Below are positions 5,511 through 57,181 of a stretch of 64,000 bases of DNA, in pieces. Under the pieces are notes generated by a model that saw only the letters and a program-made list of their open reading frames with translations, did no database searches and had not been told where the DNA came from. Source of the DNA: Streptomyces dengpaensis (GTDB lineage Bacteria; Actinomycetota; Actinomycetes; Streptomycetales; Streptomycetaceae); the NCBI RefSeq assembly GCF_002946835.1, contig NZ_CP026652.1, positions 3,472,001-3,536,000 of the forward strand, read 5' to 3'. A program made the position numbers and the translations under genes. How positions within the stretch are numbered: the stretch's first letter is position 1; each line of letters starts with the position of its first letter.

Positions 5511-7034
5511 TCAGTCCGTCACATCGATCACGCAGCGGTTCGTCTCCACCCCCGCCGCGGTAACGACCTGCACCTCCACCCGCCCCGGCTCCACATCCAC
5601 CGGCACAGGCACAGTAAGCACCGCATCCGTGGGGTTACTGAACCCCCCCGCCACCGGCACCAACGGCACGTGCACATGCACCGCCCCGATCCGGACCACC
5701 ATCCGCGACAACCGATCCGCCGTCGTCGCCCCGGGCGGCACGAATCCGGCCCCCCGGATCTCGATGTCGTCGCCGGTGCGGATCGGCGCGTCCAGGTCGC
5801 CCGCCTCGCGGGAGCGGACCACGGAGAGGATCACCGGCCGCCCGCCCTCGGCGTATTTCCCGGCGAGATACGTCGCGGCAGAGACCAGCACCAGCAGCGC
5901 CAGCCCCCACGGAAGGTCCGGCAACTGCGACGGCCGCCGAGCCAGCCGCACCGCCGCGAACAGCAAAGCAGCCGCACCGATCACCACGTACTGGATGTCG
6001 GCGAAGCTCCCCCGCCCGGAGTCGTCCGTGAGCAGATCGGCCGCGCGCGGACGGTCCGCCCGTACCTTCTGCAGGCGCTGCCCCAGCACCCGCAGCCCCA
6101 CCACCCGCCGCACCAGCACGGCAACCCCGCACACCACGGCGACGACGGTCACCACACCGGCGCCCCGGGCGAGTTCGAGGCCGGCGATCAGTTCGTCCCG
6201 CGAGCGGTGCGCGGAGGCCGCCGCGAGCTGCCCCACCAGCACGAGCACCGCGTACACCACGAACAGCACCCACCCCACCGCCATCGCCCGCGAGGTGGAG
6301 AGACGGTTGTCCTCGCCGATGACAGGGGCGAGGGCACCGCCCCGCGCCCGGTGCCAATAGCCCGCACCGGTCAGCAGCCCGCCCACCAGCACCGCGGCGA
6401 GCAGCCCGGACGTCCGCGCGGCCGTCCAACCCACGCCGATCGCGGTGAGCGCCTGCACCAGGAGCAGCGCCGCGACGGCTCCCGACACCACCCAGGCCGT
6501 TGGCAGCCACAGCCGCCCCAGCCACGCCTCGCCCTCGACCCGCCCGCGTTCGGCGACGGCATCGGCGGACTGGGTCAGTTCGTCGGAAACCCACTGCCGG
6601 GACGCGGACGCGGAGTGTGCGACGGCGGCGGGCAACCCCTGCCCGGACGCCAGCTCATCGCGCCGGGCGAGGAATTCGGCAACGGCCCGCCGATGCCCCT
6701 CCCGGGCCCCGTGCGGACAGTCCCCACAGGTGCAGCCCCCCGCATGCGCCCCCTGCCCGGCACCGGACTCCGCACCGCGGCCGGCACCGCGCCCCGCACC
6801 GCGCTCCGCACCGTGTCTCGCCTCCTGCACCGCCACGCCCGCTGCCGCCTTCCCCACGCCAAGAACTCCCGTGCGGCAGACTTCCGCACGCCTTCGTACA
6901 CCGTCGTACGACTCCGCACGCCTCCGTACACCTTGGTACGCCCCCGCACGCCCCCGCACGCCTCCGTACGATTCCGCACGCCGTCGTACACCTTCGTACG
7001 ACCACGCAAGCCCAACTGCCGGACAGCCGGCCAC
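5511..7034 (-). CDS. multi-pass membrane protein with C-terminal beta domain, repeat-rich N-terminus
   Basis: Up to 507 aa; the start is uncertain. Residues about 10-55 are degenerate 10-residue repeats (GVRRRAESYG, GVRGRAGAYQ, GVRRRAESYD, GVRRRAEV) and may lie before the true start; in-frame GTG codons near 6870 are alternatives. A Cys-rich spot (CTCGDCPHG) precedes about six hydrophobic helices (about 175-385). The C-terminal 120 residues (GDDIEIRGAGFVPPGATT ... GGFSNPTDAVLTVPVPVDVEPG) look like an extracytoplasmic Ig/IPT-type beta sandwich; that fold call is inference. I do not recognise a function. Confidence 0.72.
   Translation of the reverse strand: MAGCPAVGLAWSYEGVRRRAESYGGVRGRAGAYQGVRRRAESYDGVRRRAEVCRTGVLGVGKAAAGVAVQEARHGAERGAGRGAGRGAESGAGQGAHAGGCTCGDCPHGAREGHRRAVAEFLARRDELASGQGLPAAVAHSASASRQWVSDELTQSADAVAERGRVEGEAWLGRLWLPTAWVVSGAVAALLLVQALTAIGVGWTAARTSGLLAAVLVGGLLTGAGYWHRARGGALAPVIGEDNRLSTSRAMAVGWVLFVVYAVLVLVGQLAAASAHRSRDELIAGLELARGAGVVTVVAVVCGVAVLVRRVVGLRVLGQRLQKVRADRPRAADLLTDDSGRGSFADIQYVVIGAAALLFAAVRLARRPSQLPDLPWGLALLVLVSAATYLAGKYAEGGRPVILSVVRSREAGDLDAPIRTGDDIEIRGAGFVPPGATTADRLSRMVVRIGAVHVHVPLVPVAGGFSNPTDAVLTVPVPVDVEPGRVEVQVVTAAGVETNRCVIDVTD
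6896..7015. repeat. degenerate 10/20/30-base tandem repeats
   Basis: Repeated units built from GCACGCC, TCCGTAC and CACC blocks (for example CGCACGCCTCCGTACACC). They generate the 10-residue arginine-rich repeats at the N-terminus of the minus-strand membrane protein and are rich in CGTACG palindromes. Confidence 0.7.
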
Positions 7035-7172
7035 CGGTCACAGGCCCACCGGACAACTGCCCCGTGATGACAGCGAATTGTGCCGTACGGAACACCGCCC
7101 GCATCCGGCAGGTCTGGTCAACGCGGGTGAAGTGCGTTTACCCCGTGTTGACCTGGCTGCGAGAATTTCTCC

Positions 7173-8054
7173 ATGGCCGAGATCATCCAGCGCGACGGGA
7201 CCTGGGCCTTCGACGGCAGCACGGTCAGGATCACGCCGGGACTCCGCCGGTCCGTGCCGCTGTTCCGGCAGACGTACGGAGAGATCGCCGTCCCCCTGGA
7301 GGCGATCTCAGGCATCGTCTACGAACCTGAACGCAAGCGCGGCCGCCTGCGCCTCAGGCTCCGCGAGGGCGCCGACCCGCTGCTGCAGGCGACCGGGGGC
7401 CGGCTGCCCGATGCGGCCGACCCCTACAAGCTCACGGTCGACATCGACCGTTCCGGGGTCGCCGAGTACATCGCCGAGGAGATCCGGCATGCCCTGCTCC
7501 TGGAGCAGATCCCCAAGGAACCGGCCAAAGCCTATCTCCTCTCCGGCCCGCCCGTCCCGGTGTCCGTCCGTTCCAGCGACGGCACCGTCTCCTTCGACGG
7601 CGCGCAGGTGCGGATCGACTGGGCGGACACCTCCGACCGGGTCAAGCGGGCGACGGGGCCGCGGATCATCGCCATCGGCGACCTCGTGCAGGTCGAGTGG
7701 CTGCCCAACTCCGGTTACGAGGACGGCTTCATGCGCTTCGTGACGCGCGAGGCGGCCTTCTCCAAGCTGCCGCCCGAGAAGGACCCGTACGCCCTCGACC
7801 TGTGGGGCAGCGCCCGCCGCGACCTGCTCACCGCGCTCGTCGCCACCGCGGTCACCGCACGCCTGCCGCATCCGTCCACCCGCACGGGCGAGTACGCCGA
7901 CCGCCCGCAACTCGCCGCCTCCGTACCGCCCCCGGCCGACCACCACGACGTACTCCTGCGTCGTCTGCGGGAGTTGGGCGAGCTGCACCGCGACGGGGTG
8001 CTGACGGACGAGGAGTTCGCCGCCACGAAGGCGGCGGTCCTGCGGGGCTTCTAG
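7173..8054 (+). CDS. DUF4429 protein with C-terminal SHOCT domain
   Basis: 293 aa. Two consecutive DUF4429-type units are visible (about 1-100, MAEIIQRDGTWAFDGSTVRI; about 125-215, VRSSDGTVSFDGAQVRIDW). A linker leads to a SHOCT motif at the C-terminus (LLRRLRELGELHRDGVLTDEEFA ... KAAVL). Such proteins are common in Streptomyces and of unknown biochemical role; SHOCT helices are thought to mediate oligomerisation. The ATG at 7173 is the only good start. Its promoter must lie in the 138 bases shared with the divergent membrane gene. Confidence 0.9.
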   Translation: MAEIIQRDGTWAFDGSTVRITPGLRRSVPLFRQTYGEIAVPLEAISGIVYEPERKRGRLRLRLREGADPLLQATGGRLPDAADPYKLTVDIDRSGVAEYIAEEIRHALLLEQIPKEPAKAYLLSGPPVPVSVRSSDGTVSFDGAQVRIDWADTSDRVKRATGPRIIAIGDLVQVEWLPNSGYEDGFMRFVTREAAFSKLPPEKDPYALDLWGSARRDLLTALVATAVTARLPHPSTRTGEYADRPQLAASVPPPADHHDVLLRRLRELGELHRDGVLTDEEFAATKAAVLRGF

Positions 8055-8062
8055 GGACCCCG

Positions 8063-8857
8063 CTAACTGAGCAGGTCGGGTTCGCTGCGGCTGATGTCCT
8101 GCCACAGCGGCTGGTAGTTGATCCACGCCACCAGGTCGCCGCCAAGCTGTTCGCGTGTCGCGACCGCCTGCTTGTGGTCGATGATGATCGGCCTGCCGGC
8201 GGCCCGCGCGGTGAGCTGAACCTGGCTGGAGCGCTCCATGGACAGGAACCACCAGGCCGCCGCGTCCACCGAGTCGCCCACCGTCAGCAGCCCGTGGTTG
8301 CGCAGGACGAGCGCCTTGCGGGTGTCGAGCGCGGCGGCGATCCGGCGGCCCTCCTCGGCGTCGACGGCGACGCCCGTGTACGCGTCGTACAGCGCGTGGT
8401 CCTCGTAGAACGCGCAGCTCTCCTGGGTGATCGGGTCGAGCAGATCACCGAGCGCGGACAGGGCGCGCCCGTGTACGGAGTGGCAGTGGGCGACGGCGAC
8501 GACGTCGGGGCGGGCGGCGTGAACCTGGGCGTGGACGGTGAACGCCGCCTGGTTCACGTGGTAGCGGCCCTCGATCACCTGTCCGTCCTGGTTGGCCATG
8601 ACGAGGTCGCTCACGGTGACGTGCTTGAACGGCATCCCGAAAGGGTTCACCCAGAAGCAGTCGCTGTACTCCGGGTCGCGCGCCGTGATGTGCCCGGAGA
8701 CCCCGTCCTCGAATCCAAGCCGCCCGAAGATCCGCAGCGCCCCGGCCAGCCGTTCCTTGCGGTGCCGCCGCTCGTCCTCCGACGACTCGTGCATCGGCGG
8801 CATGGCGAACCGCAGCCGGTCGGTGGGCAGGGGAAGGGGCGGGGTGGGCCCGTGCAT
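8063..8857 (-). CDS. class II aldolase/adducin family protein
   Basis: 264 aa from the ATG at 8857, preceded by GGAGG four bases upstream. The class II aldolase fold is evident: N-terminal SGHITARDPE, metal-binding AHCHSVHGRALS (His-x-His) and the third metal His in VLRNHGLLTVGDSVDAA. The family includes L-fuculose-phosphate and rhamnulose-phosphate aldolases, ribulose-5-phosphate epimerases and aldolase-like proteins with other activities, so the substrate cannot be assigned. The gene is convergent with DUF4429 (8 bases between stops) and divergent from the flavin oxidoreductase gene across a repeat-rich promoter region. Confidence 0.9.
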   Translation of the reverse strand: MHGPTPPLPLPTDRLRFAMPPMHESSEDERRHRKERLAGALRIFGRLGFEDGVSGHITARDPEYSDCFWVNPFGMPFKHVTVSDLVMANQDGQVIEGRYHVNQAAFTVHAQVHAARPDVVAVAHCHSVHGRALSALGDLLDPITQESCAFYEDHALYDAYTGVAVDAEEGRRIAAALDTRKALVLRNHGLLTVGDSVDAAAWWFLSMERSSQVQLTARAAGRPIIIDHKQAVATREQLGGDLVAWINYQPLWQDISRSEPDLLS

Positions 8858-8975
8858 ACGGCCTCCAGCACTGGGTTCCTTTACGGGGCGGAAGTTACCG
8901 TCGGTCAGCCCAAGAGGACAGAGCTGTTGTGTAAAGGTGACGTGCGCAACGATGACGTACGCGACCCGTACGCGG

Positions 8976-9060
8976 CGGATACCCGACGACACGCTACGGA
9001 TACCCGTCAGCACGCTGCGAATACCCAACGGATACCCGGCAAAAGGTGTCGGGTATCCGC
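8976..9060. promoter_or_regulatory. repeated GGATACCCG motif, candidate operator array
   Basis: CGGATACCCG occurs at 8976, 8997 and 9029, a variant CGAATACCCA at 9018, and the reverse complement CGGGTATCCG at 9050. The first two are exactly 21 bases apart (two helical turns) and the last two form an inverted pair around AAAAGGTGT. The array ends 15 bases before the ATG at 9075 and lies between two divergent genes, as expected for a repressor or activator target. Confidence 0.55.
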
Positions 9061-9074
9061 GTCACACTCCCCGT

Positions 9075-9575
9075 ATGAGCCACACGAACTCTGCGCACGC
9101 GACGAACTGGGCGGCCTTCACCTCCGCGGAACCGGCCCTCGCCAAGACGGTCGAGGACCGCTTTGGGACCTTCACGCACCACATCCTGGCGACCCTCCGC
9201 AAGGACGGTTCCCCCCGCACCACCGGCCTCGAGGTGCGGTTTCTGGACGGCGAGCTGTGGCTCGGCATGATGCCGAACTCCCTCAAGGCCCTCGACCTGC
9301 GCCGCGACCCGCGCTTCACGCTCCAGGCGAATCCGGGGTCGGGCACGGACATGGGCGGCGGGGACGTCCGGATCAGCGGGCGGGCGATCGAGACCGGCGA
9401 CGACGATCCGGCTGCGAAGGCCGCGTACGTGAAAGAGGTGGAACCGCCGGAGCCGTTCCACCTCTTCCGCACCGAGCTGACGGAGGTCGTACGGACCTAC
9501 GTCAAGGACGACACGTATCTGGTCGTCGAGATCTGGAAGCCAGGAGAGCCGGTGCGCACTCTCAGGCGGAAGTAG
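9075..9575 (+). CDS. pyridoxamine 5'-phosphate oxidase-like (PNPOx/FDOR fold) protein
   Basis: 166 aa. It has the split beta-barrel pattern of the PNPOx/flavin- or F420-dependent oxidoreductase superfamily: HHILATLRKDGSPRTTGLEV, LWLGMMPNSLKALDLRRDPR, VRISGRAIE and the C-terminal YLVVEIWKPGE. Members bind FMN, F420 or haem; the sequence alone does not decide which. The ATG at 9075 lies just after the GGATACCCG repeats, so this gene is the likeliest target of a factor binding there. It is convergent with guaA (9 bases between stops). Confidence 0.87.
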   Translation: MSHTNSAHATNWAAFTSAEPALAKTVEDRFGTFTHHILATLRKDGSPRTTGLEVRFLDGELWLGMMPNSLKALDLRRDPRFTLQANPGSGTDMGGGDVRISGRAIETGDDDPAAKAAYVKEVEPPEPFHLFRTELTEVVRTYVKDDTYLVVEIWKPGEPVRTLRRK

Positions 9576-9584
9576 CGCTGAGGA

Positions 9585-11171
9585 CTACTCCCACTCGATG
9601 GTCCCCGGCGGCTTCGACGTCACGTCGAGGACCACCCGGTTGACGTCCGCGACCTCGTTCGTGATCCGCGTCGAGATCTTGGCGAGGACGTCGTACGGGA
9701 GACGGGACCAGTCGGCCGTCATCGCGTCCTCGCTCGACACCGGACGGAGCACGATCGGGTGGCCGTACGTCCGGCCGTCGCCCTGGACGCCCACGCTGCG
9801 GACGTCCGCGAGCAGGACCACCGGGCACTGCCAGATGTCGCGGTCGAGGCCGGCGGCCGTCAGCTCCTCGCGGGCGATGGCGTCGGCCTCGCGGAGCAGG
9901 TCCAGACGCTCCTTGGTGACCTCACCGACGATACGGATGCCGAGGCCGGGGCCCGGGAACGGCTGGCGCTGGACGATCTCCTCCGGCAGGCCGAGCTCCT
10001 GGCCGACCATCCGGACCTCGTCCTTGAAGAGCTTGCGCAGCGGCTCGACGAGCTCGAACTCGAGGTCCTCGGGGAGGCCGCCCACGTTGTGGTGGGACTT
10101 GATGTTGGCCGTGCCGGTGCCGCCACCGGACTCGACCACGTCCGGGTAGAGCGTGCCCTGCACCAGGAAGGCGACGTCCTCGCCCTCCGCGGCCTCGACG
10201 ATGATCTCCGCCTGCGCCTGCTCGAAGACCCGGATGAACTCCCGGCCGATGATCTTCCGCTTCTCCTCGGGGTCGGAGACCCCGGCCAGCGCGTCGAGGA
10301 ACCGCTCCTGCGCGTCCACGACCTTCAGCTGGACGCCGGTGGCCGCGACGAAGTCCTTCTCGACCTGCTCGGTCTCGCCCTTGCGCATCAGACCGTGGTC
10401 GACGTACACGCAGGTCAGCTGGGAGCCGATGGCCTTCTGCACGAGGGCCGCGGCGACGGCGGAGTCCACACCGCCGGACAGCCCGCAGATGGCGCGCTTG
10501 GTGCCGACCTGCTCGCGGATGGCCGCGACCTGCTCCTCGATCACATTGCCGGTGGTCCAGGACGGGGTGAGCCCCGCGCCCCGGTACAGGAAGTGTTCGA
10601 GCACCTGCTGGCCGTACGTGGAGTGCATGACCTCGGGGTGGTGCTGGACCCCGTACAGCTTCTTCTCGTCGTTCTCGAAGGCCGCGACCGGGACGACGTC
10701 CGTGGAGGCCGTGACCGTGAAGCCCTCGGGGGCGGCGGAGCAGGCGTCGCCGTGCGACATCCACACCGGCTGCTCGTCCGGGGTGCCCTCGAACAGGGTG
10801 GAGCCGGACTTCGAGACGTACAGCGGCGTACGGCCGTACTCGCGGGCGCCGGTGTTGTCGACCGTGCCGCCGAGGGTCGTCGCCATCAGCTGGAAGCCGT
10901 AGCACATGCCGAAGACGGGGACACCGGACTCGAAGATCTCGCGGTCCAGGCGCGGGGCGCCCTCCGCGTACACCGACGACGGGCCGCCGGAGAGGATGAT
11001 CGCCGCCGGGTTCTTGGCGAGCATCTCCGCGACCGGCGTGGTGCTGGGCACGATCTCGCTGTAGACCCGGGCCTCGCGGACGCGACGGGCGATGAGCTGG
11101 GCGTACTGCGCGCCGAAGTCGACGACCAGGACGGTGTCGGGGGCGGCGGCAGCGGGAGTCGCTGATGACAC
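9585..11171 (-). CDS. guaA: GMP synthase (glutamine-hydrolysing)
   Basis: 528 aa. It converts XMP to GMP using glutamine and ATP in the cytosol. The N-terminal class I glutamine amidotransferase domain has the catalytic Cys in [11 protein letters not shown] and the His in GVQHHPEV. The ATP-pyrophosphatase domain has the P-loop [15 protein letters not shown], followed by the C-terminal dimerisation domain ending GTIEWE. The start is a GTG at 11171, chosen because GGAAGG lies about 6 bases upstream; a TTG 24 bases further up is less likely. Two IMP dehydrogenase-type genes lie 28 kb away in the same window. Confidence 0.97.
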
Positions 11172-55341: not shown

Positions 55342-55532
55342 GGTGACTCCTCGTGTCTCTTGCCTCTGCGGAGGCCGGGCTTCTCCTGACCTCTCACCCG
55401 TGCGTCGAACGGGAGACGCCGGGATCGACACGCGCGCCGGATTTCTTCGAGAATTTTTCCGGCACGGGAATTTCCGCCGGTCAGTAACGGTCGGCGGTGG
55501 TGCGGGCCGGGGCCCGGACGCCCCTGCCCGTC

Positions 55533-57095
55533 TCACTTCACCCGCACCTCGCATCGCATCCGCCGCTCCCGCCCCACGACCCGCTCGGGCCCGGTCAGCG
55601 TCACCGGCACCGCATACCGCACGTCGTCGTCGGCGCTGGACATCGCCAACCGCAGTTCCAGCTCCCCCGGTTCGACGATCCGGTCGCCGTCGGGTCCGGT
55701 GTACGCGGCCAGGTCGGCCGGAACCGTGAAGTGGACCTCCGCCGACGCGCCCGCCTCCAGCGGCACGCGTGCGTAGCCGATCAGGCGGACCACCGGGCGG
55801 GCCACCTTGCCCACGGGATCGTGGAGATAGAGCTGGACGACCTCCGTACCGGACCGCTCCCCTGTGTTGCGGACGGTCAGCCGCAGGGTCGTCTCGCCGT
55901 CCGTCGGGAACGCGCTGTCGTCGACCGACGGCCGCTGCCAGGCGTACGACGTGTAGGACCGCCCGTGTCCGAACGGGAACAGCGGCGTGGGGTCGAGAGT
56001 GCTCGCCTCACCGCGCCGTCCGAGCGGCGGGGCGAGATACGTCCACGGCTGCCCTGCGGAGTCGCGCGGCACGCTCACCGGGAGCCGTCCCGACGGGTTC
56101 ACCCGCCCCGACAGGACCCCGGCCACCGCGGGCCCGCCTTCCTCGCCCGCGAAGAACGCCTGCACCACCGCCCCGCACCGGTCCGCCCAGCGCCCGAGCG
56201 CGTACGGGCGGCCGGAGAGCAGCACCAGCACGACCGGTGTCCCAGCGGCCAGCGCCGTGTCCACCACCTCGCCCTGTCCGCCGGGCAGTTCGAGATCGGC
56301 CGCGTCACAGCCCTCGCCCGACGTACCGCGCCCGAACAGCCCCGAACGGTCTCCGACCACGACCACGCACACGTCGGCCGCCATCGGATCGGCCGTGAAC
56401 TCCGCGTCCGGCAACTCCGCGCGCAGCGCTTCGAGCAGCGTCGGCACGGTGACCCCCGTCTCGACCTCGGGGTAGTCCAGCAGGACATGGCGCGGGAAGC
56501 TGTAGCACCCGAGCATCCCCGCCGGATCGTCGGCGAGCGGCCCGAGCACGGCGATCCGCCGCACCCCGGACGCAAACGGCAACGCACCGTCGTTTGCCAG
56601 CAGGACCACGGACTCCTCGGCCAACTGCCGTGCCAGCGCGCGCATGTGGGGTGGGTCGAGATCGACGGGGGCGGGGGCGGTGGTGGCGGGCGCGGCCGCC
56701 GAAGCGGTGGACGCGGCGACGAGGGCAGCCGACCCGACAGCCGGATCAGCGACCACCGTGCCCACACCAGAGGCGTGCGCGACCTCCTCAACCCCCCGGA
56801 TGATCTCCACGGCCCAGGGACTGTCGAGGTCGTTGAAGACGAGGTCGATGAGGGCGGCCCGGCCACCCGGCGCGGCGGGCCTGCGCTGGTAGCCGTGGTG
56901 CCGCAACAGGTCCTCGACCCGAGCCCGGGTCTCCGGCGACACATCGGAGCGGCCGTTGACGACACGCGACACGGTGGGCACCGAAACCCCGGCCTGCCGG
57001 GCGATCTCGGTGATCGTCACCTTGTTCTTGAAGCTCTCCCGGGCTACTGCGCCCACCTCCGTCGACGTATCCAAGACGCCCCTACGGTTCCACAC
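55533..57095 (-). CDS. chimera: LacI DNA-binding domain fused to the C-terminal half of a GH3 glycosidase
   Basis: 520 aa. Residues 26-50 are a LacI helix-turn-helix (VTITEIARQAGVSVPTVSRV), then the hinge and the start of the LacI ligand domain (ALIDLVFNDLDSPWAVEIIR, about 80-115). An Ala/Thr linker (116-143) leads directly into a GH3 C-terminal domain (about 144-365; ESVVLLANDGALPF, GRGTSGEGCDAADLELPGGQ, VVLVLLSGRPYALG, PSGRLPV, LFPFGHGRSYTSY) and a fibronectin-III-like domain. The GH3 N-terminal barrel with the nucleophile Asp and most of the LacI ligand domain are missing. GTG 57095 or TTG 57074 could be the start. Probably made by a deletion between neighbouring genes. Confidence 0.85.
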   Translation of the reverse strand: MWNRRGVLDTSTEVGAVARESFKNKVTITEIARQAGVSVPTVSRVVNGRSDVSPETRARVEDLLRHHGYQRRPAAPGGRAALIDLVFNDLDSPWAVEIIRGVEEVAHASGVGTVVADPAVGSAALVAASTASAAAPATTAPAPVDLDPPHMRALARQLAEESVVLLANDGALPFASGVRRIAVLGPLADDPAGMLGCYSFPRHVLLDYPEVETGVTVPTLLEALRAELPDAEFTADPMAADVCVVVVGDRSGLFGRGTSGEGCDAADLELPGGQGEVVDTALAAGTPVVLVLLSGRPYALGRWADRCGAVVQAFFAGEEGGPAVAGVLSGRVNPSGRLPVSVPRDSAGQPWTYLAPPLGRRGEASTLDPTPLFPFGHGRSYTSYAWQRPSVDDSAFPTDGETTLRLTVRNTGERSGTEVVQLYLHDPVGKVARPVVRLIGYARVPLEAGASAEVHFTVPADLAAYTGPDGDRIVEPGELELRLAMSSADDDVRYAVPVTLTGPERVVGRERRMRCEVRVK

Positions 57096-57181
57096 ACACC
57101 CGCGAAAAATTGCACGAGTCTTCCGGAAAATGGGAGCGGGATCGGAATCGGATCGGGATCGGAAATGGGAAACCGCAGCCG

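Follow-up and report, generated by a model that had tools for sequence, protein, structure and literature searches.

The window, by which we mean the whole 64,000-nucleotide stretch of Streptomyces dengpaensis DNA that was analysed, carries on its minus strand an open reading frame that begins as a LacI-family regulator and ends as a GH3 glycosidase. Its parts, and the features flanking it, are as follows.

55533..57095, minus strand: chimeric open reading frame of 520 amino acids with a GTG start, the 5' part of lacI1 and the 3' part of a GH3 gene joined in frame
56751..57095, minus strand: lacI1-derived part, residues 1-115 (N-terminal tail, helix-turn-helix, hinge and start of the ligand domain), placed by residue conservation and by 88-92% protein identity to lacI1 in ten of ten relatives
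56886..57017, minus strand: LacI helix-turn-helix domain, residues 27-70 (Pfam PF00356, 56 bits, cut-off 27)
56709..56750, minus strand: junction zone, residues 116-129, with a reliable alignment to neither parent side
55533..56708, minus strand: GH3-derived part, residues 130-520 (inter-domain linker, GH3 C-terminal domain and Fn3-like domain), 81-89% identical in protein to GH3 in ten of ten relatives; the linker resembles those of proteins P0038 and P0014
55953..56609, minus strand: GH3 C-terminal domain, residues 163-381 (Pfam PF01915, GH3_C, 155 bits, whole profile 1-200)
56313..56315, minus strand: codon of E261, aligned with Glu517, the acid/base residue in the beta-xylosidase of Thermotoga maritima; it is Glu in 78 of 78 orthologues
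55635..55844, minus strand: Fn3-like domain, residues 418-487 (Pfam PF14310, 69 bits)
55483..55532, no strand: second junction, a short spacer in place of about 3.3 kb of the Streptomyces albiflavescens locus (L009) with lacI2 and other genes (window 55529 to 55482 corresponds to L009 7147 to 10477; lacI2 present in ten of ten loci)
57121..57128, no strand: TTCCGGAA palindrome 5' of the chimera, a candidate operator retained from lacI1 and found upstream of lacI1 in ten of ten relatives
57103..57114, minus strand: remainder of the conserved upstream block by comparison with relatives, TGCAATTTTTCG in the window, TGCAAAGTTTC in seven of ten relatives and TGCAAGGTT in the others

A Pfam search of the chimera (E <= 0.001) returned the LacI, GH3_C and Fn3-like domains together with two weaker generic helix-turn-helix matches, and no match to the GH3 barrel (PF00933) or to a periplasmic-binding-type ligand/dimerisation domain. 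The lacI1 gene of a relative does encode a ligand domain (PF13377, 137 bits). The intact GH3 of S. albiflavescens passes the NCBIfam model NF052329 for beta-xylosidase/alpha-L-arabinosidase (1105 bits, cut-off 1050); the chimera scores 532 bits, below that cut-off, with residues 138-519 aligned to profile positions 353-750 only. Similarity to intact LacI proteins ends at V115, and residue 116, which is Ser in all 119 listed LacI homologues, is Ala in the window; similarity to intact GH3 proteins begins in the linker ahead of PVDLDPP. E261, within SGEGCD, aligns with Glu517 of the Thermotoga maritima beta-xylosidase (PDB 7zb3), and the nucleophile of that enzyme, Asp281 (D281N/E517Q mutant, PDB 8c7f), lies within the barrel missing from the chimera, both residue numbers being counted by hand along the printed alignments. 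The architecture read from the letters in the earlier note is thereby confirmed: a LacI headpiece, a GH3 C-terminal domain and an Fn3-like tail share one reading frame, the LacI part runs up to residue 115, and the barrel with its nucleophile is absent while the acid/base region is kept. Because the barrel that holds the nucleophile is gone, the chimera should not hydrolyse glycosides or act as a retaining beta-xylosidase, as judged from sequence.

In an AlphaFold2 model the core formed by the GH3 C-terminal and Fn3-like domains is confident and resembles PDB entries for GH3 enzymes, most closely the beta-xylosidase of Thermotoga (TM-score 0.61, taken by query length). Mean pLDDT in the helix-turn-helix blocks is 50-67, and the ligand-domain remnant (residues 83-116) is modelled with helices and no strands, from a shallow alignment and without an intact-LacI control model. 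The acid/base loop (253-266) and residues 343-376 fall below a pLDDT of 50. We considered whether this results from loss of the barrel and rejected the idea, since a control model of the S. albiflavescens GH3 (730 aa of the protein) is equally low at 463-475 and 556-586. Both models were built on shallow alignments, of 37 rows for the chimera (9 of which cover the LacI part) and 27 rows for the control.

The origin of the two halves is apparent from related loci. A scan of GTDB genomes, of which the best 80 of 431 matches were kept, yielded 79 loci, and the comparison used ten of the closest Streptomyces loci with both pieces and a second lacI gene (L009, L010, L011, L022, L070, L071, L073, L074, L077 and L078). 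In all ten, the LacI and GH3 parts lie in separate, co-oriented genes 5.2-5.6 kb apart (tblastn); the LacI-part matches, at 88-92% identity, end at residue 116, and the GH3-part matches, at 81-89% identity, run from residue 125-145 to 520. The second lacI gene, lacI2, directly follows GH3 in each of the ten, with 47-59% identity to the chimera's LacI part. In S. albiflavescens, alone among the ten in having been annotated gene by gene, the order is lacI1, a solute-binding protein (SBP_bac_1), two permeases (BPD_transp_1; all three by Pfam), GH3 and lacI2. An alignment of window DNA with this locus is unbroken to L009 717, picks up at 5974 and then jumps from 7147 to 10477 past the GH3 stop, so two segments are gone from the window, measuring about 5.3 kb and 3.3 kb by the L009 yardstick. 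The first lost stretch begins at codon 115 of lacI1 and reaches the GH3 inter-domain linker, and its loss created the fusion. The second, which goes beyond anything in the earlier note, lies downstream and covers lacI2, as well as a GH10 xylanase gene if L011 and L022 are taken as reference. An internal deletion joining a lacI gene to a downstream GH3 gene, as had been proposed, is therefore supported, and the question of whether close relatives have separate lacI and full-length GH3 genes is answered in the affirmative (10 of 10 loci).

The exact breakpoint, and any microhomology at it, cannot be fixed, because residues 116-129 match neither side and the linker of GH3 orthologues is hypervariable (a pattern extracted it from 53 of 78). 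Across the ten relatives, the longest word that the vicinities of both breakpoints have in common measures 7-14 bases, so there is no long repeat to invite misassembly.

Among the other loci of the scan, Actinocatenispora comari (L059:6001-7769) has the two pieces in reverse order: no more than about 130 bases separate a GH3 piece from a LacI stretch after it that is 69% identical to the LacI part of the chimera. The record L064, titled Vibrio cholerae strain 35D, has a GH3 and a LacI gene with a layout and identities resembling those of the Arthrobacter loci L047 and L069, and its contig looks foreign or mislabelled.

The relatives' locus matches a bxl-type locus for xylo-oligosaccharides, a name based on the order of the genes, the match to NF052329 and operator-type sites. 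The bxl cluster is given in the part of PMC12772271 available to us as bxlR, bxlE, bxlF, bxlG, bxlA, with the BxlR motif CGAANxTTCG, and the BxlR site in xylan genes is given in the corresponding part of PMC4743123 as 5'-CGAAACTTTCG-3'. In ten of ten relatives, one copy of the TTCCGGAA palindrome stands upstream of lacI1 and another ahead of the solute-binding gene. At L009:1575-1609, and at the equivalent place in the other nine, CCGATAATTNTCGG and TTCCGGAA occur together before the solute-binding gene, and the two are, by sequence, good candidates for LacI-type operators. A CGAAANTTTCG site follows lacI2 in six of the ten loci. In two of these, L011 and L022, the next gene is that of a GH10 xylanase with a CBM2 domain (Pfam), and it starts 22-23 bases downstream of where the site begins. 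L009 and L010 do not have CGAAANTTTCG, and L070 and L071 end short of the expected place. No GH10 motif was seen at the L010 locus and, together with the lack of CGAAANTTTCG in L009 and L010, this means that such losses are not special to the window. In S. albiflavescens, what remains of the GH10 xylanase after lacI2 is its rear part alone (profile 182-309 of 311), followed by a CBM2 domain (L009:8422-9141); given this truncated gene, the same cluster is eroding in that species too.

What the locus has lost was not found in the rest of the S. dengpaensis genome. GH3 barrels occur at three other places with 32-36% identity, none of them an orthologue of the lost barrel, and none was found among all 39 candidates scored; the earlier note had named a barrel elsewhere in the genome as an outcome that would speak against it. 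The lost 5.2 kb has no good match on any contig, the best being 72% identical and 182 bases long (scores were computed for 40 of 557 first-look candidates), and the 21 short matches, at 68-96% identity, are as expected of paralogous transporters. The xylanase search covered GH10 and GH11: no GH10 gene was found by a search that was positive in 4 of 14 control genomes, and no GH11 gene by one that was positive in 1 of 14. Exact CGAAANTTTCG occurs nowhere in the genome, compared with 1, 5, 6, 6, 6, 1, 5 and 5 times in the genomes of eight relatives, two of which (G236 and G319) have their sites at identical places and probably represent a single genome; the reversed pattern, counted as a control, was seen at most once in any of these nine genomes. 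This absence is supporting, not decisive, evidence, since the site read by lacI1, whether CGAAANTTTCG or TTCCGGAA, is not settled. The window's genome has lost more than the bxl-type locus itself. At L155:2346-2483 (G000:C1:4159345-4159482), a 46-codon open stretch is 55% identical to chimera residues 476-519; no GH3 domain was detected there by Pfam and no GH3 body adjoins it, and it is possibly the tail of another lost GH3 gene.

Whether the same fusion occurs elsewhere had been posed as a question, and no second example was found among the matches listed or in 295 genomes of the genus. In a search of 5.8 billion proteins with the whole chimera, only the window's own protein covers the full query among the best 120 of 7996 matches; the other 119 have a GH3 C-terminal domain and no LacI, three of these 119 falling below full length (P0049 and P0070, which have no barrel, and P0106). 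With the LacI part as query, none of the other 119 among the best 120 of 2638 carries a GH3 domain. In the genus sample, 19 genomes, including the window's own, match at a threshold of 1e-160, and none of the 18 others aligns before residue 73. A further 60 'relatives' genomes, more distant at the locus (best GH3 match 68%), gave no match spanning both halves. A full-text literature search turned up no report of a LacI/GH3 fusion, its one match concerning Bacteroides in the part of the text available. To our knowledge, no LacI-type regulator uses a glycosidase half as its effector domain.

Neither half of the chimera has visibly decayed. In the GH3 C-terminal part, the window departs at none of the 182 columns invariant in 78 GH3 orthologues, where orthologues left out in turn depart at 0-4, and it has five residues seen in none of the 78. 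One of these is an Arg that changes GHGLSYT to GHGRSYT; we dropped it as proof of decay because the column is variable (L 71, T 3, I 3, M 1 of 78), and it gives at most a slight hint of decay. Residues 23-115 of the LacI part contain no residue unseen among 119 homologues. Pairwise dN/dS values, which for the chimera blend the time before and after fusion, are 0.208 for the GH3 C-terminal part (0.167-0.210 in the ten relatives) and 0.136 for the LacI part (0.130-0.165); the neighbouring sigma-factor gene gives 0.168 (0.153-0.167 in three relatives). As a rough estimate, with the branch taken as half of the dS to L009 and zero changes at the 182 columns, the GH3 C-terminal part has been unconstrained for at most about 5% of the branch, so that the fusion, if not still under constraint, is very young. 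Its occurrence as a singleton in a dismantled locus favours a young fusion over a selected one. That the frame is open says little in favour of function, as random joins of the L009 lacI1 and GH3 genes are in frame and stop-free in 33% of 20,000 cases.

We consider it probable that the chimera is a recent, catalytically dead deletion relic of an eroded bxl-type xylo-oligosaccharide utilisation cluster. A deletion fusion relic is recognised by parent genes that are separate and in the same order in relatives and by the absence of the DNA that lay between them; here the parents are separate in ten of ten loci and the lost DNA was not found elsewhere in the genome, at the search depth given above. 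Relaxed constraint after the fusion would be a further mark; no excess change was seen in either half. We infer that the window's ancestor had the relatives' layout, which would have read lacI1 (BxlR-like), solute-binding protein, permease, permease, GH3 beta-xylosidase and lacI2, with a GH10 xylanase next in some relatives. One deletion, of about 5.3 kb, would have begun at lacI1 codon 115, ended in the GH3 inter-domain linker and left the two remnants in frame; another would have removed lacI2 and what came after. The upstream region and start of lacI1, the DNA-binding headpiece and the GH3 C-terminal and Fn3-like domains are kept, and transcription, if any, would start from the old lacI1 promoter with its retained TTCCGGAA palindrome. 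LacI proteins dimerise and read sugar via their ligand-binding domain. With that domain missing, the headpiece may fold but would be unlikely to bind an operator tightly unless the GH3 part dimerises, and DNA binding would be weak at most. The fusion is presumably recent and without a selected function.

A more productive fate can be imagined for the protein, namely that the BxlR-like headpiece works on the TTCCGGAA-type site at its own promoter while the GH3 C-terminal and Fn3-like domains replace the ligand domain, by oligomerising or by weak sugar sensing. The intact frame, the undecayed halves, the LacI part with no unprecedented residue and the upstream palindrome that was kept all fit such a protein, yet the fusion was found once among the matches listed, the transporter and xylanase genes that it would control were not found in the genome, and an in-frame join arises by chance in one-third of cases. 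The sugar site of GH3 enzymes is formed mainly by the barrel domain, which the chimera does not have, and the remnant of the ligand domain is predicted without strands, with the caveat of a shallow alignment and no intact-LacI control. We regard this reading as very unlikely, and as highly improbable its more specific form, a newborn regulator whose headpiece binds its own conserved upstream site, whose GH3 C-terminal and Fn3-like domains dimerise or sense sugar, and both halves of which are kept by purifying selection. It is very unlikely, too, that lacI1, the transporter genes and GH3 are really present and were dropped by the assembler: the join is known from one genome, and from its assembly rather than from reads, but the contig that carries the window is 8.54 Mb long and one of three in a genome with a completeness rating of 100%, the missing 5.2 kb was found on no contig (at the search depth given above), and relatives share no word longer than 14 bases near the breakpoints. 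The neighbouring second loss and the lack of GH10 and GH11 likewise fit a real loss. Least probable of all is a remnant expressed from the old lacI1 promoter with a side effect, its headpiece competing weakly at remaining LacI-family sites; the promoter-side block is conserved and the LacI part has matches at 12 other places in the genome, but exact CGAAANTTTCG is absent from that genome.

Of the interpretation first offered for this locus, the deletion origin is supported. The idea of a sugar-sensing regulator gains no positive support, the fusion having been found once, the transporters, second regulator and GH10 and GH11 genes being gone, and an open join having a one-in-three chance; it keeps a small probability because the sequence shows no visible decay. 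Read as a deletion relic, the locus shows two steps in the dismantling of a Streptomyces xylan-sugar cluster, and it illustrates that gene loss can yield a clean, long, in-frame chimera that resembles an invented protein, which is a useful warning for the interpretation of unusual domain orders in genomes rich in GC. Were the protein functional, it would be a regulator that nature had made from a glycosidase, and it could serve to test how regulators originate.

Deletion-born gene fusions and pseudogenes of reduced operons consist of a one-off in-frame join with the genes between lost, and the chimera does not differ from them in kind, the LacI/GH3 pair itself being unreported in the full-text literature search. 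Like GH3 beta-xylosidases/alpha-L-arabinosidases (NF052329; Thermotoga maritima, PDB 7zb3, 7zdy and 8c7f), it has the C-terminal domain, the Fn3-like tail and the acid/base Glu, but it lacks the barrel and the nucleophile Asp. It shares the helix-turn-helix and hinge region with LacI-family regulators (PDB 1rzr and 1zvv, among the matches), from which it differs in missing nearly the entire ligand-binding/dimerisation domain. The relatives' locus, for its part, resembles the bxl cluster of Streptomyces, as far as the portions of PMC12772271 and PMC4743123 available describe it, in the order and families of its genes (LacI regulator, ABC solute-binding protein, two permeases and GH3 beta-xylosidase) and, in L011 and L022, in a CGAAANTTTCG site ahead of the neighbouring GH10 gene, and departs from it in the extra second lacI, which is absent from those portions. 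In the window, unlike in the bxl cluster, the bxlR-like and bxlA-like genes are reduced to fused ends.
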